Positions 1,839-37,036 of a stretch of 64,000 nt of DNA are shown here, piece after piece (positions within the stretch are counted from its first letter, which is position 1; each line of letters opens with the position of its first letter). Made by a program: the position numbers and the translations under genes. Source of the stretch: Archangium sp. (GTDB lineage: Bacteria; Myxococcota; Myxococcia; Myxococcales; Myxococcaceae); the NCBI GenBank assembly GCA_030695565.1, contig JAUYRZ010000047.1:1-64000 (forward strand), read 5' to 3'. Below the pieces are notes generated by a model. That model saw nothing but the letters and a program-made list of their open reading frames with translations, was not told where the DNA came from and searched no databases.

Positions 1839-4556
1839 TCAGGGTACGAGCAAGCTGAGCAGGAACTCGGCGGGCGTGCTGTGGAGGACTTGAATGGTGC
1901 ACCGGAGATCGGTGCCTTCGGAACGTCCTGCGCCCACCAGCACGAACTGACCTTCCTTCAACTCGACCCGGGTCAGCTTGCCGGTGAGGTTGGCGGAGAG
2001 GCTCCAGCTCGCCGTGTGTTCCACGCCACTCAGGCTCAGGTGATCGGCGCTCACGACTTCGCCCTGCACGACGTTCAATGCGGGAACTGCAGACTTGAAC
2101 TCCACCGAGAGGGACGCGGTGAACGGCGTGGTCGCGTAGCCGAGATCAGGCGCGGCGGCGGGGTTGGCCAGGGCTTCGATCACCGTGGCGCGGAAGGTCG
2201 ACGCTTCACACGTCCTGCGCTCCACCCGGCGCGCGCGGCGCAGCAGATCGCGCGGAATCGGCGTCGCCAACACTTCAGCAGACAATCCACGCAGGCCGGG
2301 CTCCAGCGGCCGCGCCTGCTTGAGCACGATGCGCGCAGGAAGACTGCCCGCCTTCAGCGCCGGCCAGCCGGGCGCCACCTGGCGAAACTCGAAGTCGAGA
2401 ATGAGCGCCTTCGACTGCTGCGCCAGCGGCCGGGTGGCGTTCTCTTCAGCCAGCCACCGCACCGCCACCGCGCGCGCCTTGGTGAAGGTGTCGAGCAGCT
2501 CCTCATCGGTCAGCAACAACGTGCCCGGAGGCACCACGGTCGAGCCGCGCAACCGCTCGATGATGGGCGTGGTGCCGCCTTCAGGCACTGACACGCGATC
2601 CACCTCAGGCAGCTGAGACGAGGTCGGGTTGGTCACGCTCAGCGCCCCCGCCTGCACGTTGAGCTCGAGCGTCGCCGCGCTGCCCTGCAGGGTGAGCAAG
2701 AAGACGCCGTTGCTCGTCTCATGCGGGTCATCGAAGTTCGCGTGCACCACCACGGCCATGTTTCCAGACAGGTGATCGACCTTCTCGAAGGCGCGCTCCT
2801 CGAACGCCTCGAAGCTCCAGTACGAGGCCCAGGTCTTCTTGAGCGCGTACTCCACGGTCTTCTTGCGGTCGCCGGCGTCAGGCTGGGCCGCCGCGTCGAG
2901 GTAGCCGGTGTTCGAGTCATAGAGCCCGGCGCCGTTGAAGCCTTCGACGTCTTCCGCGGTGCTGGAGGAGCGGAACCGCAGCCCCTGGGTCACCGCGTAG
3001 TGGCCGAAACGAGCCGTCAACGCAGCGGTCAGCGTGGCCAGGGTGGCCGGTGCGATGGGCGCTGCGCGCAGCTCATCTTTGAGTCCACCCGCACGCGCGA
3101 GATCGCCCAGCACGTTGCCGGCGCCGTGCGAGTTGAGGAACTCCGCCAGGAACGTCTCGTCTCGAGGGTGCGAGCTGCGAAAGCGGGTCTCGCCTTCGAG
3201 CGCGAGGTACCGGATGCGTGCGTCGGCGCCGAACTCGTACGCGAGCAACATCGCCTCGATGCGGGGGCGGAACGGCGCGAGGTGTTCGGCGTACGAACGA
3301 ATGGTGATCGCCTCGAGCTGATCAGGCGTCGCGTCGGGCGTGACGGCCAGCAGCGCGAGATACCCGGTCGCCTTGCCGCCGATGGAAGGCCGCAGGGCAC
3401 CGGCGTCCTCCAGGCGCAGCGAGCGGAGATCCTGGCTGTAGGGCAGCGTGTTCACGTCGACCTGCTGCACCGCGACCGGTGACTTCGACTGCAGCTGCAG
3501 CCACTGCGTGAGCTGCGCTTCGCTGATGGGCTTGATGATCAACTCGCCCGGCACGGTCGCCTTCAACACCACCGGCGTGCGCAGGCGCGCGAAGTCTTCC
3601 AGCTCCTGGTCTTCCAGCAGCCCGCCCCGGTACGCGTTGGGGATGCCGCGGTTGCGCGCGAGCAGGTTGAAGTGCGCCAACGGCGTCTGCGGCACGGCGG
3701 TGATCACCCCGGCGGCGGGCGGCAGAAAGTCAGGCACGTCTTCCAGCACCAAGATGTCATTGGGGTTGGTGCCTGCGAAGCTCTCCCCCGAGCGAATGAT
3801 GCGCAGCCGGCCCGCGGTGAGCCCACCGTTGTAGACCTCGAGCTCGCCGGTCACCGCCAGGTCCTTCGCGCGGAGGATGCGATCGTGAAACCGCAGCTGC
3901 TGGCCTTCCATGTCCTGGGCGAGCGCCTCCTGCTGCGGCGAACGCACCACCCAGAACACCTGGCCCTTCACTTCAGGCGGCACGCTGGCGTCGAGCACCT
4001 CGAAGAACTTCACCAGCTCGGAGTGAATGATGGCGTCGGGGAACTCGAGCTGAAAGGCCCAGCGCTCCGGGCGGGCCCCGCGCGCGGTGACGTGAATCAG
4101 CGTGCCCAGGCCCAACGCGCGCGGCCGAATGTCGAGGGAGAGCGTGTAGAAGCGGGGGCTGTAGAGACGATCGCCTTCGGCCCAGGTGAGGTCGAGCGGC
4201 AGCACGGTCTCCTGCTTCGCCCACGCGTAGATGTCGGCGATGGTCTCGAAGCGGTGCCCCTCGAACGGAGCGATGCCCTCGCGCCCGGGGATGTGGGCGC
4301 CGTTCATCAACCGGAACCAGTACCACTCGTCATGCAGCTCGTAGAACCGCGCGTCCATGTAGTGCGGCGTGGGGGTGGCCGAGGGGAAGTTGCTGAAGAC
4401 GAACTTGGTCTCGGAGCGCCCGTTCGAGGTCGCGGCAAACGTCTCGTAGGCGGCGAGGGTAGCCAGCTTCGAGACCGTGTGGTCATCGAACCCGTCAGGC
4501 CCGGGCGGGCAGGCAGCAAGGCTGATCAGCAGGGGGAGCAAGAGCAGGCGGCGCAT
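1839..4556 (-). CDS. Exported lipoprotein with a phosphohistidine-like segment and a PPDK/PEP-synthase-type ATP-grasp domain
   Basis: A 905-residue protein. The signal peptide MRRLLLLPLLISLAAC has a lipobox Cys at residue 16, so it should be acylated and exported; the frame extends upstream to 4754 but this ATG fits the signal. Residues ~290-305 (TPLAHFNLLARNRGIP) resemble the swivelling phosphohistidine domain, with His295 at the right place. Residues ~391-700 look like PPDK_N: SIGGKATGYLALL, then RFRSSSTAEDVEGFNGAGLY at ~528-546. The order His domain then ATP-binding domain is that of glucan water dikinase and the reverse of PpsA. No PEP-binding TIM barrel is visible. ATP is not expected outside the inner membrane, so its role there is unclear. 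It is a single gene with about 250 bp of free upstream sequence. Confidence 0.75.
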   Translation of the reverse strand: MRRLLLLPLLISLAACPPGPDGFDDHTVSKLATLAAYETFAATSNGRSETKFVFSNFPSATPTPHYMDARFYELHDEWYWFRLMNGAHIPGREGIAPFEGHRFETIADIYAWAKQETVLPLDLTWAEGDRLYSPRFYTLSLDIRPRALGLGTLIHVTARGARPERWAFQLEFPDAIIHSELVKFFEVLDASVPPEVKGQVFWVVRSPQQEALAQDMEGQQLRFHDRILRAKDLAVTGELEVYNGGLTAGRLRIIRSGESFAGTNPNDILVLEDVPDFLPPAAGVITAVPQTPLAHFNLLARNRGIPNAYRGGLLEDQELEDFARLRTPVVLKATVPGELIIKPISEAQLTQWLQLQSKSPVAVQQVDVNTLPYSQDLRSLRLEDAGALRPSIGGKATGYLALLAVTPDATPDQLEAITIRSYAEHLAPFRPRIEAMLLAYEFGADARIRYLALEGETRFRSSHPRDETFLAEFLNSHGAGNVLGDLARAGGLKDELRAAPIAPATLATLTAALTARFGHYAVTQGLRFRSSSTAEDVEGFNGAGLYDSNTGYLDAAAQPDAGDRKKTVEYALKKTWASYWSFEAFEERAFEKVDHLSGNMAVVVHANFDDPHETSNGVFLLTLQGSAATLELNVQAGALSVTNPTSSQLPEVDRVSVPEGGTTPIIERLRGSTVVPPGTLLLTDEELLDTFTKARAVAVRWLAEENATRPLAQQSKALILDFEFRQVAPGWPALKAGSLPARIVLKQARPLEPGLRGLSAEVLATPIPRDLLRRARRVERRTCEASTFRATVIEALANPAAAPDLGYATTPFTASLSVEFKSAVPALNVVQGEVVSADHLSLSGVEHTASWSLSANLTGKLTRVELKEGQFVLVGAGRSEGTDLRCTIQVLHSTPAEFLLSLLVP

Positions 4557-4807
4557 CGCGAAGGCCCCTGTCGCAAAAGTGACACCACCGCGTTCCAGTG
4601 TGGAGTCGCGCACTTGGCGGCCGGTTCCCCTCAGAAAACCGTGATGGTCCTGACTCTTCACGGAGAGAAGCCGTAGCAGCGGAACGGTGCGCCAGACAGC
4701 GGGGAGCGAAGCGGACGGCGGGCCGAGGCGGAACGAACAGGCAAAGAGGTCCATCCAGCCCCGGGCCGACGCTGGCCCCAGGCGGTTGAGCCCGCTATGA
4801 CAATCAG

Positions 4808-6466
4808 ATGCCAGTCGCGTGGTTGGGGAGGGTGGTCGACTGGTGGATGCCCGAGGTCAATGACCCTGAGATCCGCGCGAGCAGCCGCTTCGCCATTCAG
4901 AGCTGGCTCATCGCCTGGCCGATGGCCGTGGTGTGGACCGTCTTCTTCATGTTCACGCAGATCTGGGGCCAGGTCGCGCTCAACGGGCTGATGGTGGTGA
5001 TGGGCCCCATCTCGTTGTGGGGTGTCAAGCGCACCAAGACCCTCACGCCGTGGATCCAGCTCACCCTCGGCTCCGCGCTGCTGCTCTACGGCCCGGGCGT
5101 GCTCACCCAGACGCCCATCGACGAGACGGGGTTGTTCTTCTCGGTGATCGTGCCCCTGGTGGCCGGCTTCACCCTGGGCGCGAGGAGCGCGGCGCGCTGG
5201 GCGGTGCTGACCGCGGCCGTCTCGGTGACCGCGCTGCTGCTGGGCCATGCCGGCTACACGCTGCCGGCGAGCGACCCCGCGCCGATGGTGTCGAAGGCGT
5301 TCAACATCGTCACCACGCTGGCGATGACCGCGTTGTTCTCGGGCCGCTTCTACGTGGTGCGCCGCGAGATGCTGGAAAAGGCTGAGGCCGCCAACCGCGC
5401 CAAGAGCCTCTTTCTCGCCACCATGAGTCACGAGATCCGCACGCCGATGAACGGGGTGCTGGGCATGACCGAGCTGATGCTCACCGAGGCCAAAGACCCG
5501 AGCACGCGTGAACAGCTCGAGGTGATCCAGCGCAGCGGGCGGCTGTTGGTCTCGTTGATCGACGACCTGCTCGACGTCACCAAGCTGGAGGCCCAACGCC
5601 TCACCCTCGAGCAGACCTGGTTCGAGTTGGCGCCCCTGATGCGCGATGTCGAGCGCCTCTTCACCGCGCGCGCGCAGGAGTCGGGCGTGGCCTTCTCGGT
5701 GACCCTCGCCGAAGGCAGCCCCGCTCGCATCCGTGGCGATGCGCTGCGGCTGCGGCAGGTGCTGCTCAACCTGGTGAGCAACGCGCTCAAGTTCACCGAA
5801 GCCGGCCGTGTGGCGGTGGTGGTCAAGCCCGTCACCGGCGGCTTGTCCTTCAGCGTGGAGGACACCGGCATCGGCATCTCGCCGGAGGTGATGCCCCGGT
5901 TGTTCAACGTCTTCCAACAGGCCGACGCCTCCACCACCCGGCGCTTCGGCGGCACGGGCCTGGGCCTCGCGCTCTCACGTCAGCTGGTCACCCTGATGGG
6001 CGGCCACCTGATGGTCGATTCGCTGGAGGGCAAGGGTTCGCGATTCCACTTCAACCTGCCGGTCGGTGAAGCGCGGCAGGTGGCGCTGCCCAACGTGAAC
6101 GCGGGCGCTGCGCCCCGGGTGCTGGTGGTGGACGACAACCCCATCAACCTGCGGGTGGCCACCAGCCTGGTGCGCAAGGCGGGCTTCGAGGCCGACGGGG
6201 TGAGCACCGGCGGTGAAGCGCTCAGCGCGGCGGGTGCGGTCGCCTACGTGGCGGTGTTGATGGATTGCCACATGCCCGAGATGGATGGGTTCGAGACCAC
6301 GCAGAAGATTCGCGCGTTGCCCGCTCCGTTCGGCGGCGTGCCCATCTTCGCGTTGACCGCGTCGACCAGCGAAGAGGACCTGGTGGCCTGCCGCCGCTCG
6401 GGCATGAACGAGGTGTTGGCCAAGCCGGTGTCGCTGGAGACCTTGCAGCGGGTGCTCTCGAAGTAA
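4808..6466 (+). CDS. Membrane hybrid sensor histidine kinase with C-terminal receiver
   Basis: A 552-residue sensor kinase. The first ~185 residues hold about five or six hydrophobic segments. A dimerisation/phosphoacceptor helix follows, [19 protein letters not shown], with His208. A HATPase_c domain then has the N box ([12 protein letters not shown]), DTGIGI and [10 protein letters not shown]. The receiver domain begins [11 protein letters not shown] and has the phospho-acceptor Asp486 in [12 protein letters not shown] and a conserved Lys near the end (VLAKPVS). No separate extracellular sensor domain is visible, so the membrane segments are probably the sensor. The next gene starts 28 bp downstream on the same strand, suggesting co-transcription. 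Its target is unknown. Confidence 0.93.
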
Positions 6467-6494: not shown

Positions 6495-8699
6495 ATGGGC
6501 ACCTACCGGCTCGCCAAACACCTCACCTCGCCTTCACTTCTGACGGACAGCTGGGCCGGCGTCTCTGACGCGGGCAAACCGGTCCTGGTGCTGAGGCGCA
6601 AGGACCCCTGGGCGCAACAGCCTCAATTCTTCGAGCGCTTCGCGGCCACCCAGCGGGGCTGGCAGGCGTTGCGTCAGGCCGACGGCGTGTTGCCCCTGGT
6701 GGAGGTCGGCCAGGCCGACGGGTCCATCTGCGTGGTGCAGTCGTTTCTGGAGAGCGAGCCGCTGCGCCTGGCGATGTCCGGAGCCGCGCCGCCGGGCCGC
6801 ACGCCGTTCTCCGTGGTGGAGAGCGTCGCGGTGGTGCTGCAGGCTGCGCGCGGGTTGCTCTCGCTCGAGCAACTCGACCCCTCGGTGATGCACGGCGACG
6901 TCTCTGCCAGCACGCTCTTGCTGGGCAGCGACGGCTCGGTGCGTTTCGAGGCCATCGGCATGGCGTCCGCGCATCAGGCGAATGATTCGTTGGGGCCCGC
7001 CCGCTCCGAGTTGCTCACGCTCTCCCCTGAAGAACTCGACGGCCCCGCCGCTGCCACCAGCGACGTCTTCCGCCTCGGGCTGGTGTGGCTCGAGTTGCTC
7101 ACCGGCAAACCGGCCTTCAGCGGCTCCAGCTGGGCCGAGGTGAAGGCGCGCTTCGCCAGGTTTCCCGGCGTGACGCCCGGCCACTTCACCGCCTTGCCCC
7201 AGCCCATCCCCATGGTGTTGGCGATGATGCTCTCCAGGCTGCCTTCTTCGCGGCCCGCGGTCTCCGACCTCGAGCTGATGCTCACCCAGGTCTACGGCGC
7301 CGTGGGAGGCATCGACGCTCCGGTCACGCCACTGGCCGACGCGTTCGTGCGCCTCTTCCCTTCGCGCTCGAACGTGGGCGCGCAGCTTCAGGGCGGCACG
7401 GTGTTGAACTTGAGCCCGCTCGGAGGCGCCGCGGAAGGCGCGGTGAAGCTGGCGCGCATCAACACCAAACGAATGACGGCCACCGACGTCGCCCAGTCGC
7501 GTGCCCTGCAAGCCCAGGATGCAGCGCGGGCCGTGGCCCGTGAATGGATGCTCCAGCACTCGCGTGACGAGGGCAACCCGCGTGACCTCGCGCTCGGCGC
7601 CGCGCTGCTCGAACAGCAGCGGCTCACCCGGGAGCAGGTCGACGCGGCGCTCCAGCACGCGCAGTCGTTGAGCGCGACGTTCTTCGACTCGGTGTGCGCG
7701 CTCGACGTGCTCGATGAAGATGAGGTGTTGCCCATCGCCGCGGGGCTGCTCAAGCAGCAGTACCTCACCGGCCCGCAACTGCTCGAGCTCGAGCTGGGCC
7801 CCGCGCAGGAGCAGCTGCTCGCGCGTGACGTGGCCGATGACTGGCAGATCATTCCGTTGAAGCTCGAGGCCGGCGCGCTCACCGTGGCGGTGATGGATCC
7901 GTCGCGTGTCGATGTGCTCGATGACGTGAAGATTCGTGCGAAGGCGCGCTCGGTCATTCCGGTGCGTGCGACGGAACGCACCATTCAGGAAGGGTTCTCG
8001 CGCATCTACGACGGCAAGACGGCTGCGCCGGAGTGGGCGGTGAAACGAGCGCCTTCTCCCCCGCCCGTCGCGCTCTCAGACGAGCCGTTGATCGGGTTGC
8101 CGCTCGCCTCGAGCAACTCGGGCGTGCTCGAGCTGATCGCGCCAATCGATTCTTCTCCCGGCGTGGAGGCGCCCAAGTCGGTGCCTCCGCCCATCGCGCT
8201 GGGACCTCCGCTGGCGGCCAGTGAGTTGGTGGGGTCGCTCGAGGTGTCGTCGCGGTTGTTCGACGCGCTGCTCTCGGTGGTGGGCGATCGAGGGCTCGAG
8301 GCGTCGGCGATGATCTCCCTGGTGCGTTCGGTGGCGAAGCAGGCCGGCGCCGTCGGAGCACCACTCGATCAGGTGCGGCTGTCGGTCACCGCGGTGGTGA
8401 TCGCTGCGCTGCTCGAGGGCAAACGCGGGTTCGAGGTGCCTTCACGACCCGCTGCGGCGGCGTGCCTGGGCCCGCACTGGCGTGACTTCGAAGACTTCGT
8501 GCGGCCGTTGCTCGATGGGCACGAGACGTTGCCCTCTGATCCCCGCGGGGTGGTGTTGTGCCTGTGTTTCGAGGTCGCCGATCGGATCGGCTGCGTGCCG
8601 ACCACCCTCGCTGAAGTCGGGCTCACGCTGGAGCACCTGCGCGGCCGGTATCCCCTGGCGGCCCTCGCGGCGTTGGAGATCGTTCTCGCAGGGAAGTGA
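6495..8699 (+). CDS. Pseudokinase fused to a GspE N-terminal (MshEN) domain
   Basis: 734 residues. The N-terminal ~270 residues follow a Ser/Thr kinase fold but the catalytic motifs are gone: the beta-3 Lys position reads VLVLRR, HRD reads HGDVSAST (no Arg, no catalytic Asn), and DFG is absent. Residues ~365-505 resemble the MshEN/T2SSE_N domain: LGAALLEQQRLTREQVDAAL, later WQIIPLKLEAGALTVAVMDP and DVLDDVKIRA. In GspE/PilB proteins this domain can bind c-di-GMP or contact the secretion platform. A Pro-rich linker leads to an unassigned helical C-terminus (~570-734). It is likely co-transcribed with the hybrid kinase upstream. A signalling adaptor role is inferred. Confidence 0.75.
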   Translation: MGTYRLAKHLTSPSLLTDSWAGVSDAGKPVLVLRRKDPWAQQPQFFERFAATQRGWQALRQADGVLPLVEVGQADGSICVVQSFLESEPLRLAMSGAAPPGRTPFSVVESVAVVLQAARGLLSLEQLDPSVMHGDVSASTLLLGSDGSVRFEAIGMASAHQANDSLGPARSELLTLSPEELDGPAAATSDVFRLGLVWLELLTGKPAFSGSSWAEVKARFARFPGVTPGHFTALPQPIPMVLAMMLSRLPSSRPAVSDLELMLTQVYGAVGGIDAPVTPLADAFVRLFPSRSNVGAQLQGGTVLNLSPLGGAAEGAVKLARINTKRMTATDVAQSRALQAQDAARAVAREWMLQHSRDEGNPRDLALGAALLEQQRLTREQVDAALQHAQSLSATFFDSVCALDVLDEDEVLPIAAGLLKQQYLTGPQLLELELGPAQEQLLARDVADDWQIIPLKLEAGALTVAVMDPSRVDVLDDVKIRAKARSVIPVRATERTIQEGFSRIYDGKTAAPEWAVKRAPSPPPVALSDEPLIGLPLASSNSGVLELIAPIDSSPGVEAPKSVPPPIALGPPLAASELVGSLEVSSRLFDALLSVVGDRGLEASAMISLVRSVAKQAGAVGAPLDQVRLSVTAVVIAALLEGKRGFEVPSRPAAAACLGPHWRDFEDFVRPLLDGHETLPSDPRGVVLCLCFEVADRIGCVPTTLAEVGLTLEHLRGRYPLAALAALEIVLAGK

Positions 8700-9132
8700 C
8701 TGCCAAACAGCCCCAGGGAACGCGGGGGCGCCAATGAAAGAGGGGCGCCCGTGTCGAACTTGCCCCTCACCTCGAGTGCAGCAGGTGCACGCGCTGCGAC
8801 TTGTGTGGCGCTGATGCCCTCCCGGGGGCACCGAACTCACACAAGTGGTGCACTCGCGATGGGCCGCGGCATTTCGCAAGCGAGGGCGGGCGGCCGGGCG
8901 TGATCAAACCGATGCCTTCCCTCACATGTGGGGCTCTGATGCTGTCCCAACAACACCCAACTCACACACGTGGTGCACTCGCGATGGACCGTGGCCTTGC
9001 GCAAGCGAGAGCGGGCGGCCGGCGTGATCAGAACCGACGCCTTCCCTGATGCTCTGGGCGTCGTTCTGGCAGGAAGTGGCAGGCGGCCCCTCGACTCCAC
9101 CCGAGGAGAACGGTACGCCCGCGCTGCACCTC
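8700..9132. other. Gene-free stretch carrying a tandem duplication
   Basis: About 430 bp between the pseudokinase gene and the transglutaminase-like gene. No open frame here looks like a real protein. Its main content is the two-copy tandem repeat at 8811-9047, listed separately. The promoter of the downstream gene presumably lies here but no clear -35/-10 pair could be assigned. Confidence 0.5.
8811..9047. repeat. Tandem duplication of a 112-bp unit (period 125 bp)
   Basis: Copy 1 is 8811-8922 and copy 2 is 8936-9047. Both start CTGATG, share ACTCACACA followed by GTGGTGCACTCGCGATGG, then CGCAAGCGAG and GCGGGCGGCC, and end GCCTTCCCT. By eye they are about 85 percent identical, with two single-base indels that would shift any reading frame. 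The unit therefore behaves like non-coding sequence. A third CTGATG(CTCTGGG) follows at about 9046. Possible roles are a duplicated regulatory region or a small RNA; neither is shown. Confidence 0.8.
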
Positions 9133-27342: not shown

Positions 27343-30300
27343 CACTGAATCTCCTGTTTGAAGGCGCGCTCATCGTTCGCGAGGTTGCCCCCGGCCACCG
27401 AGAAGCCGCCGAACGAAATGAGGGCGTACGAGAAGTCGGTGAAGGGCGTGACGACCTTCACTTCGATCGACCCGGTGAGGATCTTCACTTCCCAGTCGAC
27501 GGAACGAACCATCGAGCTGTTGACCGCGGTGCGGCCCGCGTTGTCCTTCACCCGGGTGTACGTGAAAGCGATGCTGGGGAGGAGCGACGCCTCGATGATG
27601 TTCACGCTGCCACCGAGGCACAGCGCGAAGGGCGAGTCGGCGCTCGGGGTACAGAACTCGACGCCGAAGCCGGCCGCGAAGCCCAACTTCATCGCCAACT
27701 TCAGCTCGTGGGAGCTGCCGGTGGTGATGCGTGGCCGCACGCACACCGACGGGTAGAGGGCGTCGATGGAGCGGCTGCCGAACTCAGTGCCCTTGAGCGT
27801 GACGCCGCTGGCCACCGGCCGCTGGGTCGCCAGCACGGCCGCGGTCACCGAGGTGCCATCGAGGGTGGTAGGCGCCGCGATCGATTGAAAGGGTCCGAAG
27901 GTGCTCGCCTTGAGGAAGTTGGTGCCGTCCGAGAGCCAGCGCATGTACGTGGCGTGACCGTTGGCGCAGACCGCCGAGCTCCACGTGGTCAAGCAGTCGG
28001 TGTTCGGCCGGTACTCGTTGCCCACCTGCGCGCCGACCCAGGCCTCGGTCGTGGCGGGCAGCGCTGCGCGCATCAGCGCGAGGGCGGCGTCGGTGCGGGG
28101 CTCGGCGAGCTGGCCGCCGAGCGTCGCGCAGACCTCGCGGGCCTTCTTCAGCGGCATCGACGGCAGCGCGGTGTTCACGTCGGAGCAGGGCTGATCGACG
28201 ATCTCACCTGCTGCGTTGACCACCGCGCACGTGGTGCCGACGTTGCCGTTGTAGGTGTGGGTCAGCTCGAAGCCGAGCCCCACGCCGCCCGCGAGGCTGA
28301 ACGTGAGATCGCCCTGCACCGGGCCGAAGCGGAGTGGAATCGCGAACTCGAGACCGACCGCGAGCCCCTTGACGTCAGCCGAGAAGCTCCTGGCCTCGGC
28401 GTGGAAGAAGGGGATGGGCGCGCCGAGCTGCTTGGCCTTCCTGCCCAGCGTTTCGAGCTTGGGCGCGAAGGTGATGGTGTTCTCGGTCTCGCTGAAGACA
28501 TCGTCGCCTGGCAGCTTGAGCACGTTGAAGCCGAGGATCTTGAGCGACTCGCTCATGTCTTCGGTATCGCCTTCTTCATCGGCGTCGGAGGTCAGCGAGA
28601 AGATGGTGCTGCCCAGCGGCCCACCACTGCCGCCCAGCTCCTGGGTCATCGTGGTCGAGCAGACTTCAGCGCCGACCGCGCCGGTGCAGTGGCGATCGAA
28701 GCTGGGGTCGAAGTTGGCCGACATGCGCGACTCGCCGCTGGTGGTGGCGTCGCTGTCACCGTTGTCGCCGCCGCCGTTCTCGGTCTCGGCGAGCGGCAAC
28801 ACGATGTCTTCGCCGTAGAACGTGAAGAGGCCGCTTCGGGCGCAGCGGTTGACCGCTGACTCGAGGTTCCGGGTCGGCGCCCAGGCGTTGGTGCTCAGGG
28901 GCACTTGCACCTGCTCGACCACGCCGGGGTCTTCGACGCGAACCAGGTCGGTGCGGGTGGCGTTGTACTTGTAGTTCCAGTTCACCTTCGCCGAGAAGAA
29001 GCGCGGCGTGGCCTCGGTGCAGAACTGCAGCACGTAGGTGCGTCGTTCGCCCGGCTTGAGCGGGTAGCGGCCCGCGGGGTTGAACAGCGCGGTGCGCAAG
29101 GCGTTGGTGAGCGGCACCGAGAGGGTCTGGGCAGAGCCCGATTCGCTGAGGCCATCGAGCGGCGGTCGCATGGCATCGGCCGGCAGGGGAATCATCGCGC
29201 TGGTGTCGACCACCACGTTCCCGTCCCCATCTTTGAGGGTGGGGTCGGGCACGGGCACGAAGCCGGTGCCGGCGGCGCTGCCCCGCGTGACGCCTTCGAA
29301 CTGGAAGTAGATGCGGGTCCAGTCGACGCCGCCGGTGACCTGCTGCATGCCGTTGCGGCGCACGCTGCCCATGGGCCGGTAGCCCCTGAGGTAGCGACGC
29401 CAGACCTCTGATTCGGGCCCCGACATCTGCAGGATCAAGTCGACGGGGATGTCGCCGCGAACGCGCCCCTGCTTGTTGACGCGGAACTCGAGGCCGCGAA
29501 CGTTGACCTCCGAGGGGCGCAGCAGGGTCTTGGGCCGCTCGTTGATGAACAGCCCTGCGAGGTTCCCGCGCGCGCTCGTCACGGCCAGGCGGTTCTGCCG
29601 GTAGTACCCGAGCGCGTCGTGCACGCCCGCGGTGTAGTTGAAGAAGAAGTCGATGGGCTTGGTGCTGCACGAGTTCTCGGTCGCGGTGCGGAGATCTTGC
29701 AGCACGAGCGCGTGGCCCTCGAGATCGTAGGACGCCTCGAGCTGGTTGAGGTCGGAGTTGGTGGGCCGCCGCAGCGTCGGCGAGCTGACGTCGTAGCCCT
29801 GCGCGCGCCAGGCCGTGCGGGCGACGGTGGTGAACGCTTCGCCGGTGCTGCAGCTCGGAGGAATGCGCAGGGTCTCGTCGAACGCGATCTCGGTCTGGCC
29901 GTTCGATTCGCTGGGCGTGTACTTCGAGAGGTCGATCTTGCCGATCACGCAGCGCACGGCGTCGATGAGCGTCGCGCCGTTGTCGGGCAGACCCAGGCGA
30001 GTGCTCACCCAGAGCGTGAGGAGCTGCCTGGGCACGGTGCGGGTGGCCCCCACGGACCTGACACGCCCCTTGAAGCGATAGAGCTGGTCCTGATCGAGCG
30101 TCACGGCGAGGCCCTTGAGCCCGGTGTTCAAGGCGATGGCCTGACCATCGGGCTCGCCGGGAACGAGCAGCGTGCGCGCCACGCTGTCGAAGGTGACGGA
30201 GGTGGTCTCAATCGCCGTTTCGACCGGCTTCAGGAGGTCGGGCACGCACTGCATGTTGATGTCGCGCGAGGTGCGGCCGTAACAGTTCTCGGGAACGCAG

Positions 30301-30809
30301 ACGGTCTTGTCGCTCCAGGCCTGGCGCAGGGCGCAAGAGGCCGAGTAGGCGAACTCGGTGTGGACCTGGCCGTTTTCCCCAGAGCAGCGGTAGGTGATCT
30401 TCGGGCTCGTCTTCCACTCGGGGTAGCTGGCGTTCGAGCACGACACGAGGTTGCGCACCTCGTTGAGCGGGAAGCAGCTCGACTTGCCATCGCAGAGCGC
30501 CTTGGCGACCGCGAGGTCTTCGGCTTTGAGCACCGGCGCGAACCCGGAGCAGCTCAACGACTCGACTGACATCGTGTTCTCGAGCGCGTCGACGCCCGAG
30601 TCGGCCGCCGTCTTCGATTTGCGCAGCTGTTGCAGTTGCTCGCTGGTGTGGCCGTTGGGAAAGCGCCCGAAGTCCCACGGCCGTTGATCGGCGGGGCAGG
30701 TGAAGGCCGTCACGTTCTGACGAACCGACGTGGTGTCGTCGACCCCGCAGCCGACCAGCACCGTGAACACGGCGCCGCTCAGCATCCACTTCACGTTCTG
30801 GGTTCTCAT
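27342..30809 (-). CDS. Giant exported lipoprotein with a C-type-lectin-like domain
   Basis: 1155 residues. ATG 30809 is chosen because it overlaps the upstream stop (ATGA) and gives a lipoprotein signal, MRTQNVKWMLSGAVFTVLVGC. The N-terminal 200 residues are Cys-rich (about a dozen, e.g. SLSCSGF, GKSSCFPLNEVRNLVSC, VCVPENCYG). A long beta-rich middle has no recognised domain. Residues ~885-1025 resemble a C-type lectin fold: KKAREVCATLGGQLAEP, EAWVGAQVG, DCLTTWSSAVCANG and ALYPSVCVRP. The C-terminus has alternating strand segments as in surface or outer-membrane-associated sheets. A surface-exposed binding role is inferred. Confidence 0.75.
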   Translation of the reverse strand: MRTQNVKWMLSGAVFTVLVGCGVDDTTSVRQNVTAFTCPADQRPWDFGRFPNGHTSEQLQQLRKSKTAADSGVDALENTMSVESLSCSGFAPVLKAEDLAVAKALCDGKSSCFPLNEVRNLVSCSNASYPEWKTSPKITYRCSGENGQVHTEFAYSASCALRQAWSDKTVCVPENCYGRTSRDINMQCVPDLLKPVETAIETTSVTFDSVARTLLVPGEPDGQAIALNTGLKGLAVTLDQDQLYRFKGRVRSVGATRTVPRQLLTLWVSTRLGLPDNGATLIDAVRCVIGKIDLSKYTPSESNGQTEIAFDETLRIPPSCSTGEAFTTVARTAWRAQGYDVSSPTLRRPTNSDLNQLEASYDLEGHALVLQDLRTATENSCSTKPIDFFFNYTAGVHDALGYYRQNRLAVTSARGNLAGLFINERPKTLLRPSEVNVRGLEFRVNKQGRVRGDIPVDLILQMSGPESEVWRRYLRGYRPMGSVRRNGMQQVTGGVDWTRIYFQFEGVTRGSAAGTGFVPVPDPTLKDGDGNVVVDTSAMIPLPADAMRPPLDGLSESGSAQTLSVPLTNALRTALFNPAGRYPLKPGERRTYVLQFCTEATPRFFSAKVNWNYKYNATRTDLVRVEDPGVVEQVQVPLSTNAWAPTRNLESAVNRCARSGLFTFYGEDIVLPLAETENGGGDNGDSDATTSGESRMSANFDPSFDRHCTGAVGAEVCSTTMTQELGGSGGPLGSTIFSLTSDADEEGDTEDMSESLKILGFNVLKLPGDDVFSETENTITFAPKLETLGRKAKQLGAPIPFFHAEARSFSADVKGLAVGLEFAIPLRFGPVQGDLTFSLAGGVGLGFELTHTYNGNVGTTCAVVNAAGEIVDQPCSDVNTALPSMPLKKAREVCATLGGQLAEPRTDAALALMRAALPATTEAWVGAQVGNEYRPNTDCLTTWSSAVCANGHATYMRWLSDGTNFLKASTFGPFQSIAAPTTLDGTSVTAAVLATQRPVASGVTLKGTEFGSRSIDALYPSVCVRPRITTGSSHELKLAMKLGFAAGFGVEFCTPSADSPFALCLGGSVNIIEASLLPSIAFTYTRVKDNAGRTAVNSSMVRSVDWEVKILTGSIEVKVVTPFTDFSYALISFGGFSVAGGNLANDERAFKQEIQ

Positions 30810-33800
30810 GGAGACACGCACCTCAAGACGACGCAGCCGCCGTTGTTGGTGAACTGGAAGCCGTTACCGGCAGAAGGACAGAAGGTGTTCAGGTCGTTGA
30901 TGCTCTGGCCGCCCGGGCCGCTGCCGAAGCCGGCGGCCTCCGAGGTCAGCCCCGAAGGCAACGCGCCGAACGCGCCGCCCTGCCCGTCTGAGCCGAAGGT
31001 GCCAGCCAGGCCGCCGGGCTCACCCGCGCCTCCGCCACCCGAGCGCTCCGAGACGGTGGCTCTCTGCCCGCTGTTGGAGGGAGCCCCCCCCGACGAAGCG
31101 TCGCCTCCCGCGCCACCACCGGCCTGAGAGCCGCCACCACCTGCGGGCACCGAAAAGCTGGCCAGCGTCGCGCCACCCGAGCTCGCGCGCCTCACGCTCG
31201 TCAGCCCTCCGCCGCCGCCGCCTCCGCCGTTGGCGACGTTCGAGTCACCGAGCCCGCCGTTGGCCGGGGCGCCGAGGTACGAGCCAAGGTGGTCTGACGG
31301 GCCGCCCGACGACGCAGCCGCGCCGCCCGGGTTGCCGACCCACACCGTGAAGACGTCGCCCGGCGTGACGGAGAGCGTGCCGCTGACGAAGCCACCGGCG
31401 CCGCCGGGGGTGGGCGGGAGCATTTGCAGGTTGCCCCCCGCGCCCGCGCCACCGGCTGCGCCCCAGGCCGTCACCCGCATCTGGGTGCACCCCGCAGGCA
31501 CGGTGAAGGCGCCACTGGGCGTGGTGCCGTTGGTCGTCGGCACCGTGGCGACGAAGCGACCAGCGCCGCAGCGCCCCGTTCCCGCGCAGGCGCCTGAGTT
31601 GTCACCGCAATAGCAGTCGAGCGCCGGGCCGCAGTCGGTGTCGAGCGAGCAGGTCATGCCGCCATCGCCGCCGCCCGTGCCGCCGTCAGTGGAGGTGCCA
31701 GCATCAGTGCCGGCATCGGTGCCCGCATCGGTGCCCGCATCGGTGCCGGCATCGGTGCCGGCGTCGACCCTGAGCGTCACGTCGTCGCAGGTGCACGCGA
31801 GGGTGACCTGGGCCGGAGCGTCGGTCGGCAAGGGGCCGCGGTCGGCGCTGGTGATGGCGCAGCTCTGGCGGAAGCGGCGGCGCGGCACCGTCACGCTGCC
31901 GGGGTTGAGGGTGTTGTACTGGTAGGTGGCGTCGGCCTCGACGGTCGCGCCGACCGAGAGCTGCCAGGCGAGGCCTCCGTCGTAGGGGCCGGTGACGGTG
32001 AGCGAGCCGGCGTTGTAGTCGTTGCCCGAGTAGGCGACCTGCGCGTACGGCGCTGCGCTGACGTGCGGGCTCAGGCTGCTGAGCGTCACGCTCGGCCCCC
32101 AGGGGCGCAGCTCCCAGACGCGCACGCCGCCGGCGTTGGCGGGCGTGACCTCGACCCGGTCGGCGCACGAGCTCGAGTTGGTACCGAAGTGCACCTCGCT
32201 GCGAGTGCGCACGCAGGTGAGCACGTTCGATTCGGCGACGCTGACGTCGGCCATCGTCCAGTCGCCGTTCGCGTCGCGCACCTGAAACGTGCAGTTGAAC
32301 TGGTTGCTCAGCGGCTTCTGGACCTTGAGCGTGCGGAGGGCGCTGAACGAACGGGTGAACGACGACGCGCCGGTGCCGATGAGATCGTACGTGGCCCCCG
32401 TGCCGTCGAACTGCACGGGCAGGCGCACCAGCTGCGCGCCGAGGCCGACGACCGTCATGCTGCGTGAGTAGAGCTGCTGGCAGGTGCCCTGGCTGCATTG
32501 CGAGTTGGCGTTGCACACCGACGACTGCGCGCCACAGGGCTGCCCGACGGAGCAGCGGCACCGATTCGTGCCACCGCAGTCGACCGCCAGCTCGTCGCCG
32601 TTCTGCCGGCCATCGTCGCAGGTGGGGAACCGGCAGCGGCCGCTGAAGCACTCGGCCCCGGTGACGCAGTCGCTGGCGGAGTCGCAGACCTTCGTCTCAG
32701 CGCACCCACCGGAGCCGACGCGCTCGGTCTGCTGCGCGCAGAACGCGCCGCAGTCGACGTCGGTTTCCATGGGGTCTTTCGTGAGGTTCTTGCAGGTCGC
32801 GTAGTTGATGGCGGTGTTGACCGAGGTGCCGCCGTCGAGCGCGTTGATGGTGAGTTCGGCGTCGTTGCCGTTGGTGGTGCCCTGGGCGACGGTGGTCTTC
32901 GAGGTGCCGTCAGGTTGAGTGACGGTGGTCTGCACCGAGATCTGCGTGCCGCCCTGCGGGCTGGCGTCGACCGTGACCTTCACGCTCGAGGGGTCGCTGC
33001 TGTCGAGCTTGATGGTGGTGCTGGGGTTGCTCACGGTGATCGTGGTGCTGGTCTGAGAGCCGTCGGCGTTCAGGGTGACGGTGGTGAGGGTGGTGCCTGC
33101 GTCACCGGTCGAGTTGAAGGTCACCGTTTTTTGGGCGGGGTCGACGGTCATCGCGCCCTGCCCGCTCGACGAGTCGACCTTGGTCGCCATGGTCGGGCCG
33201 ACCGCGAAGATCGTGCCGCCGTCGCCCCCCACTGAGATGGTCTGCGGGCCGGTGCCCTTCACCATCACGTTGGTGATGGTGCTGGGGGCCTTGCAGAAAC
33301 AGTCAGCCGACGAGGGCAAGAAGGTGCCGCCCTGCTCGAGGATCTCGCCGTTCTTGAAGCCGACCATCGTGCCTTGCGACTCGTCTTTCACCAGCAGGGC
33401 GCCACCGCTGGCCGAGGCCGAGAGCCCTTCAGCGAAAGGCGCGGGGAGCACGCCCTGGCGCAGGCTGACGGGCGAGAAGAAGAGCTTGTTGCCGTTTTCT
33501 GGCGTGCCCTCGTAGCTGCGGGGGAAGTCGGGGTTGGTCGAGCCCTCGTACTTCCAGGTGTTGGCGTCGACGTTGAGCTCGAGGCGCCGCTCTTCCGAGG
33601 GGAAGCTGGGGTCGTAGACGCGAACGAAGTACTGGCCTGCAGCCGTACCGCGGAAGTAGCCGAAGGGCACCAGCGCGTGGCCACCCGAGAAGCCCGAGGC
33701 GTCCTTCATCGCGATGAGCAGGCGCCAGCCTTCGTCGGTCTGAGGAAGCGCCTTGGCGAGAAACGGCAGCACCTCGTTCGCGGCGAGCCGCTTGTCGTTG

Positions 33801-34264
33801 ACATGCACGGAGAGCACCTTCTGGGTCGCGGCCCAGTAGGAGATCTCGGAGCGCACGCTCGCCTGGAAGGGCACGCCTGCAGCCGAAGCGGCGCCGAGGG
33901 GCGCGGGGTCGAGCTTGCCGGTGGAGATCAACAGCGCCAGCACCGCCATGCCCTCGCTGTGGCCGTAGCGAAAGCCGGCGTTGGTGTCGTCGAGCCACGT
34001 CTGCGCGATGGCCGACGGTTGGCAGGTGTCGCCCGCGCCACGGGCGCAGACTGCGCTGTCACCGAACATGCGCGCCGCGAGGGGCGCGGTCAGCGCGCTC
34101 CCGCTCAACCCGTCATCGAAGTTCGCGAAGGTGAAGGCGTGCCGTTCGAATTGAAAGGCACCGTCCACGCGGTCGGGCGGCTTGTCGTTGCAGCCAGTGA
34201 CGGTCAGGCAGACGATGATTGCTTCCAGGCGCAGCCGCGCGCGCGCCGATTTCAAATACTGCAT
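30806..34264 (-). CDS. Giant exported lipoprotein: papain-like domain, beta region, Asp-Ala-Gly stalk, Gly-rich C-terminus
   Basis: 1152 residues. The signal is RLEAIIVCLTVTGC with lipobox Cys25. Residues ~80-235 look like a papain-fold domain: RYGHSEGMAVLALL, then GGHALVPFGYF (His196) and YFVRVYDPSFP (Asp218). Related proteins have Cys where Ser103 stands, so the nucleophile is probably lost. A Thr/Ser-rich beta stretch (~330-480) and a Cys-rich EGF/MopE-like part (~510-620) follow. A stalk of six Asp-Ala-Gly-Thr units comes next, and finally a very Gly-rich domain (~960-1120). First gene of the operon. A surface or adhesin-like protein is inferred; 490 bp of gene-free DNA lie upstream. Confidence 0.75.
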   Translation of the reverse strand: MQYLKSARARLRLEAIIVCLTVTGCNDKPPDRVDGAFQFERHAFTFANFDDGLSGSALTAPLAARMFGDSAVCARGAGDTCQPSAIAQTWLDDTNAGFRYGHSEGMAVLALLISTGKLDPAPLGAASAAGVPFQASVRSEISYWAATQKVLSVHVNDKRLAANEVLPFLAKALPQTDEGWRLLIAMKDASGFSGGHALVPFGYFRGTAAGQYFVRVYDPSFPSEERRLELNVDANTWKYEGSTNPDFPRSYEGTPENGNKLFFSPVSLRQGVLPAPFAEGLSASASGGALLVKDESQGTMVGFKNGEILEQGGTFLPSSADCFCKAPSTITNVMVKGTGPQTISVGGDGGTIFAVGPTMATKVDSSSGQGAMTVDPAQKTVTFNSTGDAGTTLTTVTLNADGSQTSTTITVSNPSTTIKLDSSDPSSVKVTVDASPQGGTQISVQTTVTQPDGTSKTTVAQGTTNGNDAELTINALDGGTSVNTAINYATCKNLTKDPMETDVDCGAFCAQQTERVGSGGCAETKVCDSASDCVTGAECFSGRCRFPTCDDGRQNGDELAVDCGGTNRCRCSVGQPCGAQSSVCNANSQCSQGTCQQLYSRSMTVVGLGAQLVRLPVQFDGTGATYDLIGTGASSFTRSFSALRTLKVQKPLSNQFNCTFQVRDANGDWTMADVSVAESNVLTCVRTRSEVHFGTNSSSCADRVEVTPANAGGVRVWELRPWGPSVTLSSLSPHVSAAPYAQVAYSGNDYNAGSLTVTGPYDGGLAWQLSVGATVEADATYQYNTLNPGSVTVPRRRFRQSCAITSADRGPLPTDAPAQVTLACTCDDVTLRVDAGTDAGTDAGTDAGTDAGTDAGTSTDGGTGGGDGGMTCSLDTDCGPALDCYCGDNSGACAGTGRCGAGRFVATVPTTNGTTPSGAFTVPAGCTQMRVTAWGAAGGAGAGGNLQMLPPTPGGAGGFVSGTLSVTPGDVFTVWVGNPGGAAASSGGPSDHLGSYLGAPANGGLGDSNVANGGGGGGGGLTSVRRASSGGATLASFSVPAGGGGSQAGGGAGGDASSGGAPSNSGQRATVSERSGGGGAGEPGGLAGTFGSDGQGGAFGALPSGLTSEAAGFGSGPGGQSINDLNTFCPSAGNGFQFTNNGGCVVLRCVSP
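31695..31767 (-). repeat. 12-bp coding tandem repeat (Asp-Ala-Gly-Thr stalk)
   Basis: About six near-identical 12-bp units (plus strand GCATCGGTGCCG or GCATCGGTGCCC) encode DAGT repeats in the giant lipoprotein. Such arrays can change in copy number by slippage without shifting the frame. Confidence 0.85.
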
Positions 34265-34754
34265 GTCGTTTCGTGCCTCTCCACTGAAGCCAGCCCACAA
34301 TGATTCTGGGGATCACGCGACACGCAAACCTTTCGACGCAGTCAACATTCTGACGCCGTGAGGCGCACTGCACCTCGAACTCACCCTGAGGCAACGATCG
34401 ATTCGCGGGGAAGATGCAGCCGCCCACTTCGAGCTGCCCCCCTCTCGTGCGCACCTTCGCCGCCGCGTGCAGCTTGAAGACGAAGCCGCGGAGCGTCGAG
34501 GACCATCACCTGGAAGGAGGCACAGGCGGCCTCCGGGCGCGGCTGAGCGTTGGGCCACGCACACTGAGCGAACCTGCCCCGCCCAGTCAGTCGGCGTGCG
34601 ACGGCGCAAGGTCCGAGCCCCCATGCCACCGCACCACCGAGGTGGGCCAGGGCGGGCACCTGGTCGGGGCACACGCGATGCACACTCGATCGTCTGGCCC
34701 GAGGACCTCATGGGTTAGCGCGGCCTCCCACGACACCGAACAATGGAGTGAACC
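34265..34754. other. Gene-free stretch between divergent genes
   Basis: About 490 bp between the start of the giant lipoprotein (minus) and the exported protein (plus). Several frames are open but none has a ribosome site, signal peptide or recognisable domain. It should contain the promoter of the five-gene operon and that of the plus-strand gene, but I could not assign either. Confidence 0.5.
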
Positions 34755-36196: not shown

Positions 36197-37036
36197 GTGC
36201 ACGCGCGGCAGACAGCACGGAGGCGCTTGGCCGGCGCCGCGGTCGGCCTCCTGCTGGTCGGCTGGCTCGACTTGATCACCGGCGTGGAGGTGCGGGTGTA
36301 CCCGCTCTACTTCCTCCCGGTCGCGCTGGGCGCCTGGTCTCATGGGCGCCGCGCGGCGGTGGCCCTGTCGCTGACAGCCACGGTCATCTGGGTGATGAGC
36401 AACCGCCAGGCTGGGCTCATCTACAGCCACCCGGCCATCTGGGCGATCAACTCGCTGGCCCAGCTGATGGGCTTCAGCGTCATCGGGCTGTTGATCGCCG
36501 AGTTGCACCGGCGCCTCCAGGCCGAAGCCGCGCTCAGCCGCACCGACACCCTCACGGGGCTCGCCAACGTGCGGGCCTTCCGCGATCAGCTCGCGGTGGT
36601 GCTGGGCCTGGCCCGCCGCGGCGGCCGGAGCACCACCCTCGTGTACGTGGACCTCGATCACTTCAAGGCGGTCAACGACACGCGAGGGCACGCCGCCGGC
36701 GACCAGGTGCTGCGCGCGACTGCCGCCTGCCTGCGGGAGGCCGCCCGCGCCACCGACCTCGCAGCCCGGTTGGGCGGCGACGAGTTCGCCCTGTTGCTGC
36801 CCGAGACCAACGCCGAAGGGGCGCGGGCGGTGCTGGATCGGTTCCGGACCCGACTCGCCGAGACGATGCTGCGGGGTGGGTGGCACGTCACCGCCAGCAT
36901 CGGCGCCGTGGTTTTCCCCCTGGCGCCCGCCGAGCCAGCAGCAGCACTGGAGGCGGCCGACGCCCAGATGTACCTGGCCAAGCAAGCGGGGCGCGATCGC
37001 TGCACCATCGAGGTGCTCCACAGCCCCGCGGCCTGA
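36197..37036 (+). CDS. Membrane diguanylate cyclase
   Basis: 279 residues from GTG 36197. It makes c-di-GMP from two GTP. The N-terminal ~100 residues form about three membrane segments (LAGAAVGLLLVGWLDL; YFLPVALGAW; AVALSLTATVIWVM; AQLMGFSVIGLLIA). The GGDEF domain begins DTLTGLANVRAFRDQL and has the active-site motif GGDEF at 193-197, with metal-site DLDHFKAVND upstream. An RxxD inhibition site (RATD) lies five residues before GGDEF, so product inhibition is likely. It is the only c-di-GMP enzyme in the window; the MshEN-type domain of the protein at 6495-8699 could be a receptor, which is inference. Confidence 0.92.
   Translation: MHARQTARRRLAGAAVGLLLVGWLDLITGVEVRVYPLYFLPVALGAWSHGRRAAVALSLTATVIWVMSNRQAGLIYSHPAIWAINSLAQLMGFSVIGLLIAELHRRLQAEAALSRTDTLTGLANVRAFRDQLAVVLGLARRGGRSTTLVYVDLDHFKAVNDTRGHAAGDQVLRATAACLREAARATDLAARLGGDEFALLLPETNAEGARAVLDRFRTRLAETMLRGGWHVTASIGAVVFPLAPAEPAAALEAADAQMYLAKQAGRDRCTIEVLHSPAA

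Follow-up and report, generated by a model that had tools for sequence, protein, structure and literature searches.

Fusions of the MshEN domain with Ser/Thr protein kinase domains and with HD-GYP domains, as well as up to 22 MshEN-encoding genes in Myxococcus xanthus, are reported in the part of Wang et al. (2016; PMC5013675) drawn on here. In that part of the paper the fusions were taken as signs of regulation by c-di-GMP, and dead kinases are not mentioned. The authors also found that mutating conserved MshEN residues markedly reduces c-di-GMP binding, and that binding was lost in Xanthomonas XpsE through changes in several of these residues (PMC5013675). The protein analyzed here carries the same domain pair, MshEN and Ser/Thr kinase, as the 2016 fusions; however, both functions look lost in it. 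It is encoded within a 64,000-nucleotide stretch of DNA from Archangium sp. (GenBank assembly GCA_030695565.1, contig JAUYRZ010000047.1, positions 1 to 64,000), referred to below as the window.

Seven families of bacterial Ser/Thr pseudokinases (ActPs1-3, GLW, DLHK, CP1 and DYD) are distinguished in a 2025 review, in the part of which drawn on here several are described as fully motif-degraded, their functions as mostly unknown and bacterial pseudokinases as largely unexplored experimentally (PMC12599244). Although these are Ser/Thr pseudokinases as well, their descriptions set some of them apart from the window protein: the GLW family has GLW in place of HRD, where the window protein has HGD, DLHK is helicase-linked, and ActPs1 is mainly actinobacterial and PQQ-linked. 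The same part of the review contains no mention of "myxo", "MshEN" or "c-di-GMP" (PMC12599244). In the open-access literature, no paper was found that combines "MshEN" with "pseudokinase" or "MshEN domain" with "threonine protein kinase", and nothing was found there on the family of kinase–MshEN proteins described below. The kinase–MshEN fusion as such has been known since 2016, whereas a version that appears dead as a kinase and blind to c-di-GMP was not found in the open-access literature. Pkn1 of Myxococcus xanthus is a kinase. In the part of the report on it drawn on here, Pkn1 resembles the window protein as a myxobacterial protein with a degenerate c-di-GMP receptor domain; however, that domain is a PilZ domain without c-di-GMP motifs rather than MshEN, and the architecture is unrelated (PMC8844925).

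Domain organization and genomic setting

A full-length AlphaFold2 model of the 734-residue protein was built from 14 sequences (mean pLDDT 81.9; pTM 0.47, with uncertain relative placement of the domains). The model shows, in order, a kinase fold (matched over residues 1–292), a low-confidence segment (311–326), a long helix, the MshEN domain up to about residue 510, a second low-confidence segment (519–582) and a helical C-terminal domain (CTD), with a block pLDDT of 28–37 over most of the linker (Table 1). The sequence-only reading, which had described a pseudokinase fused to an MshEN domain, is borne out by Pfam, by the model and by the residue losses aligned to intact relatives; its domain order was right for the kinase fold and MshEN, but the third domain was overlooked.

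Table 1. Positions of the features discussed, in window coordinates unless a locus is named
Feature	Residues	Position	Strand	Remark
Hybrid histidine kinase gene (HisKA-HATPase-REC)		4808..6466	+	ends 28 nt upstream of the gene; possible operon partner
Whole gene, ATG start	1-734	6495..8699	+	predicted pseudokinase, degenerate MshEN, Pro-rich linker, dead HD-GYP-like domain
Protein-kinase-fold domain	1-270	6495..7304	+	Pfam and VIA-align
Beta-3 Lys position	Leu33	6591..6593	+	Lys in 36/36 intact, 7/24 HGD relatives
HGD for HRD	133-135	6891..6899	+	HRD Arg replaced by G134; HGD invariant in 24/24 HGD relatives
Catalytic-loop Asn position	Thr140	6912..6914	+	Asn in 36/36 intact, 2/24 HGD relatives
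DFG position	A153-I-G155	6951..6959	+	Asp in 36/36 intact, 8/24 HGD relatives
Activation-segment GPxRxE	G167-P-A-R-S-E172	6993..7010	+	G, P, R, E invariant in 24/24 HGD relatives
Predicted long helix before MshEN	329-354	7479..7556	+	AlphaFold2 model
MshEN domain	361-510	7575..8024	+	Pfam match 433-509 and model
c-di-GMP half-motif I position	366-389	7590..7661	+	eroded
c-di-GMP half-motif II position	395-418	7677..7748	+	all key residues changed
Pro-rich linker	513-575	8031..8219	+	low model confidence, fast-evolving
C-terminal HD-GYP-like all-helical domain	576-734	8220..8696	+	no HDxGK or GYP
Lipoprotein-like gene beside HGD-clade paralogs (L031, L032-L037, L039, L043, L127)		e.g. L031:10170-10874	+	divergent from paralog
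MshEN-HD-GYP-REC protein (G000:C117)		L151:1306-3213	+	
Second pseudokinase-MshEN protein, L138 (G026)		L138:2-1594	-	

The kinase part matches the Pfam family PK_Tyr_Ser-Thr above its cut-off (residues 61–260, E 1.3e-8) and Pkinase below its cut-off (E 1.9e-5). When the full-length model was compared with the PDB, the list of matches was filled by kinases, and VIA-align superposed the kinase part on MST3 (Z 28.6, 268 aligned, 2.5 Å) and on Mycobacterium tuberculosis PknA (Z 28.2, 259 aligned, 2.7 Å). The landmarks of the bilobal kinase fold, P178-E179 (the APE Glu), D190 (alpha-F Asp) and R253 (alpha-I Arg), are present and conserved in both clades of relatives described below. The MshEN domain, which matches PF05157 with E 1.1e-11 (45 bits, cut-off 23.1), is modelled as four helices followed by an alpha/beta part with a block pLDDT of 82–92. 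Matches to profiles of anti-phage kinases (MAD6, PD-T4-6) in PADLOC and NCBIfam, the best PADLOC match being 3.6e-19 and the NCBIfam MAD6 match 44 bits against a cut-off of 460, were read as generic kinase similarity; the anti-phage reading was dropped because the matches fall in the kinase part, except for one that reaches residue 349.

The CTD, for which no Pfam family was matched, was modelled alone as seven helices with a pLDDT of 92.4. A Foldseek search returned chains of the HD-GYP protein DvhD in the first five rows (best E 0.47, probability 0.94), and in VIA-align HD-GYP domains and the related PgpH HD domain took ranks 1–8 (Z 9.8 to 7.7), the best of them (Z 9.8, 151 aligned, 4.2 Å) lying below the value of about 13 advised for helical folds. 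At the sequence level, the match to HD-GYP domains alone is weak, with hhalign E values of 0.008–0.06 (0.026 against six HD-GYPs of the same genome, where the target alignment is ragged), and a profile search of PDB sequences placed a "CHD_buttress" chain first (E 0.006, 0.010) and DvhD at E 0.11. Because sequence alone failed to prove the relationship, the HD-GYP-like assignment rests on fold rank together with colinearity with an MshEN-HD-GYP-REC protein. Neither HDxGK nor GYP, the motifs of active HD-GYP phosphodiesterases, is present in this domain or in any of the 60 CTDs compared, of which 58 are 100 aa or longer; three of the 60 contain an HD pair, never as part of HDxGK.

Among the eight window-subclade loci examined, no neighbour is conserved throughout. 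Elsewhere in the HGD clade defined below, 10 of 12 paralog loci carry a divergent lipoprotein-like gene of 207–254 aa, whose product gave no Pfam match in the one case scanned, and at several of these loci relatives of a PpiC/SurA-type isomerase gene, on the other side of the paralog, or of a universal-stress protein gene are found. One paralog of this kind (G000:C78, at L031) is encoded in the window genome, while the lipoprotein-like gene is found at none of the eight window-subclade loci. The active-looking GGDEF protein noted earlier is indeed present in the window (36197–37036, + strand, GGDEF intact, Pfam E 2.2e-39); as a partner it was set aside, being about 27.5 kb away with no link to the gene found. 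Two 99-nt direct repeats, 83% identical and spaced 125 nt start to start, lie just downstream of the gene (8799–9022). The − strand at 1839–4754 encodes a protein of 971 aa whose sole Pfam match, to PPDK_N, is weak and falls below the cut-off (E 2.8e-5); its gene adjoins an RNA 3'-phosphate cyclase gene (684–1745), and relatives of both lie near the gene in genome G003. Two neighbouring genes at 27345–34300 (− strand) each encode a protein of about 1160 aa, one without a Pfam match and the other with a borderline Gly_rich_2 match only.

Catalytic and c-di-GMP-binding residues in two clades of relatives

A profile of 17 relatives, searched against 96 family genomes, separated full-length members (best E 1e-272) from kinase-only matches, and 49 of 195 phylum genomes had a match with an E value no higher than 1e-95, 48 of them in the family of the window genome and one (G037) in another. 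Alignment of close relatives matched 14 named loci from Archangium sp., Myxococcaceae and Myxococcales metagenome assemblies. The 106 ORF matches were reduced to 64 distinct relatives, in all of which residues were tabulated and 60 of which were counted, the incomplete L024, L013, L058 and L112 being left out (L112 was re-examined as L138); within the 60, L003 and L084 have incomplete CTDs. These rows fall into 36 with an intact kinase and 24, including the window protein, with HGD in place of HRD. There are no mixtures, and none of the genomes that yielded the rows contains both kinds. All 36 intact relatives have the beta-3 Lys, HRD, Asn and DFG Asp together with 6 or 7 of the 7 positions in both MshEN half-motifs. 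In contrast, the 24 HGD relatives keep 2–5 of 7 positions in motif I and 1–5 in motif II, and all of them lack the HRD Arg, the motif-I Gln and the motif-II Arg. The beta-3 Lys, Asn and DFG Asp were lost piecemeal, 23 of the 24 lacking at least one. The exception, L060, is the sole HGD member with the beta-3 Lys, Asp, Asn and DFG Asp (as DAG), suggesting that early HGD members may have been active.

In the window protein, the losses of the beta-3 Lys, HRD Arg, catalytic Asn and DFG named by the sequence-only reading proved exact in all four cases on alignment to the intact relatives. His133 and Asp135 of the HRD motif are retained, and D135 is the only one present of the four residues expected of an active Ser/Thr kinase (beta-3 Lys, HRD Asp, Asn and DFG Asp). 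Loss of the HRD Arg alone does not make a pseudokinase, as is known from non-RD kinases. The combined losses suggest that Mg-ATP phosphotransfer would be lost in this protein.

The c-di-GMP-binding MshEN standard used for comparison consists of two 24-residue motifs with Arg, Leu, Gly and LxxxLxxQ. Motif I of the window protein reads ALG...Q...V...L..A in register: Leu2, Gly3 and the second Leu remain, whereas Arg, Gly10 and Gln are altered and the first Leu is Val. Motif II (TFF...D...V...A..L) retains none of the six key residues, nor Gly10; thus 3 of 6 key positions are left in motif I and 0 of 6 in motif II. Aligned to c-di-GMP-binding motifs, the window protein therefore largely lacks the contacts in both halves, and binding of c-di-GMP is probably lost. 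The same loss is common to the whole HGD clade: the motif-I Gln is present in 36/36 intact and 0/24 HGD relatives, the motif-II Gln in 36/36 and 1/24 (L065), and the motif-II Arg/Lys in 36/36 and 0/24. The earlier proposal of a c-di-GMP-controlled scaffold consequently holds up as to the scaffold, but not as to control by c-di-GMP. Two patterns count against a simple story of messenger-site loss, in that motif-I position 1 is Arg/Lys in just 18 of the 36 intact members and the motif-II Gly10 is kept in only 19 of these 36 (17 lack it) while being kept in 19 of the 24 HGD members. Furthermore, MshEN erosion alone is not rare, because 6 of the 14 MshEN domains of the genome, including those of the window protein and its paralog, are clearly eroded when the motif stretches are read; two more lack one Gln.

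On a tree of all 60 rows, one branch with 100/100 support separates the 36 intact from the 24 HGD relatives, so that the joint loss is essentially one event. A 48-row tree, from which 16 near-identical intact rows had been thinned out, was rooted on two generic kinases. On it L135, a relative from another taxonomic family with an intact kinase and an MshEN intact but for the motif-II Gly10, falls outside the family of the window protein, indicating that the intact state is ancestral. With no regain allowed, this tree requires one loss each of the HRD Arg, the motif-I Gln and the motif-II Arg, and 9 losses of the catalytic Asn, 3 of the beta-3 Lys, 2 of the DFG Asp, 6 of the motif-II Gln and 5 of the motif-II Gly3; the motif-II Gln needs 6 because L065 keeps it, which shows that not every messenger-site change was early. 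The HRD Arg and part of the messenger site (motif-I Gln, motif-II Arg) would thus have been lost first, together on the HGD stem, and the beta-3 Lys, Asn and DFG Asp, repeatedly, along with the remainder of the messenger site, later. L138 is a pseudokinase without HGD that sits beside the HGD clade at 100/100 on a branch of 1.44 in a midpoint-rooted drawing; its HRD and DFG have been substituted completely, neither MshEN Gln survives, and the residues in their place differ from those of the HGD clade; it may be a second, independent case of loss.

The intact clade (e.g., L070, L075, L098) is homologous to the window protein over its full length, with the order kinase, MshEN and dead HD-GYP-like domain, and many members extend further at the C-terminus, where a REC profile matches (E 1.1e-12); L116, the single intact relative scanned, ends in a receiver (Response_reg, E 8.9e-6). 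Its members are candidate c-di-GMP-regulated Ser/Thr kinases, and no published study of this clade was found. Its C-terminal half is colinear over 495 columns (E 6.5e-25; profile alignment leaving out L003 and L084) with a standalone protein of the window genome that comprises MshEN, HD-GYP and, from its sequence, a receiver; taken separately, MshEN matches at E 6e-18 and REC at E 1e-11, with HD-GYP in register. This position is stronger evidence for an HD-GYP origin of the CTD than the sequence match. Unlike the window protein, the standalone protein has no kinase, keeps HDLGK and has largely intact MshEN motifs (motif-II Gln to Glu), and of 39 family genomes sampled, 36 contain some match to it with an E value no higher than 1e-50, in a few cases a partial one. 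About 90 aa follow its REC domain, which presumably resemble DUF4388. Because of this homology, the fusion probably arose by addition of a kinase N-terminal to an MshEN-HD-GYP-REC-like protein.

Selection on the gene was gauged by Nei-Gojobori dN/dS over six pairs, without a codon-bias model or significance test, with values of 0.28–0.50 for the kinase, 0.32–0.67 for residues 271–360, 0.16–0.49 for MshEN, 0.18–0.38 for the CTD and 0.30–0.81 for the linker (window against L040 of G003: kinase 0.28, MshEN motifs 0.34, MshEN_C 0.24, CTD 0.22, linker 0.62). All three domains look to be under purifying selection. Six residues, L124, G134, P168, R170, E172 and R491, occur in every one of the 24 HGD rows and in none of the 36 intact ones; A112 is likewise absent from the intact rows and present in 23 of 24, whereas P254 and L455 are shared by some intact relatives and are not HGD-specific. 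Where the HGD clade has GPxRxE, the intact relatives mostly have GVxKxK, with Lys at the position of R170 in 36/36 and at that of E172 in 33/36. Judged from the sequences, the new invariants are constraint on something new.

Explanations for the conserved but degenerate protein

With a probability of roughly 0.6, the window protein neither catalyzes phosphotransfer nor senses c-di-GMP and serves as a signalling scaffold (or decoy), its ancestor having been a Ser/Thr kinase that presumably responded to c-di-GMP. Most likely it works by binding other proteins, through contacts that its pseudokinase activation segment, MshEN bundle and HD-GYP-like domain would make; candidate partners are the clade-B paralog, a further Ser/Thr kinase and, within this genus, the hybrid histidine kinase encoded by the neighbouring gene. 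Such a protein-binding role is preferred over decay mainly because of the new HGD-clade invariants. A decaying pseudogene with neutral losses would account for three domains without catalytic or ligand residues; however, these new residues are shared by all 24 HGD members, dN/dS is low in the kinase, MshEN and CTD over the six pairs, and the full-length matches listed in the profile search of 96 family genomes contain no internal stop codon, all of which makes decay scarcely credible. For an MshEN that still binds c-di-GMP and switches the pseudokinase, one can cite the kept fold and the Leu2, Gly3 and second Leu of motif I in register. Both Gln, Arg and Gly10 are changed, however, as are the motif-II Leu2, Gly3 and second Leu, the loss is clade-wide, and mutation of such residues cuts binding, as XpsE illustrates (PMC5013675), so this reading is very unlikely.

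One point against the scaffold reading is Asp135, whose invariance in 24/24 HGD rows would be unusual in a purely structural cleft. The same residue speaks for an atypical active kinase, in which Asp135 would be the base and Lys36, Arg34/35 or Glu152 would replace the lost Lys and DFG Asp; WNK and other non-canonical kinases are precedents for substitute catalytic residues. Lys36 is found in the window protein and three same-genus orthologs and Glu152 in the window protein, L059, L113 and L003, but across the clade Lys36 occurs in only 7 of the 23 rows with a residue there and Glu152 in 4 of 24. In addition, two Gly of the glycine-rich loop, invariant in the intact relatives, are Ser and Leu in the window protein, and with nearly every member missing at least one of Lys, Asn and DFG Asp, an active kinase is unlikely. 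Alternatively, H133-G134-D135 together with R170 and E172 may form a different active or ligand site in a re-tooled cleft, with MshEN as a docking surface; other pseudokinases with new chemistry are known (SelO, SidJ), and we regard this as improbable for the HGD clade. Finally, the protein may be an adaptor of the adjacent hybrid histidine kinase, encoded in the same operon and scaffolding or inhibiting its phosphorelay in place of the cis receiver of the intact relatives. The 28-nt spacing on the same strand, the conservation of the pair with two further upstream genes in G003 (L040), and the C-terminal receiver that intact relatives can carry (L116; REC profile) are consistent with this role. 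However, only 2 of the 8 window-subclade loci have the histidine kinase next to the gene; the other 6 do not, although in L041 a related gene lies at a greater distance. Histidine kinases are, moreover, very common in myxobacterial genomes of this group, which leaves the adaptor role doubtful.

Implications for c-di-GMP signalling and bacterial pseudokinases

An MshEN match should not by itself be annotated as a c-di-GMP receptor. Within one family, these proteins would form a stepwise natural series, from a presumed c-di-GMP-responsive kinase through L060, in which the messenger site is broken and the catalytic residues are kept, to proteins with both losses and the fold retained. At its intact end the series poses the question of whether c-di-GMP acts on Ser/Thr kinases through MshEN, and at its other end, what role a bacterial pseudokinase may play once its input and its output chemistry have both been lost.
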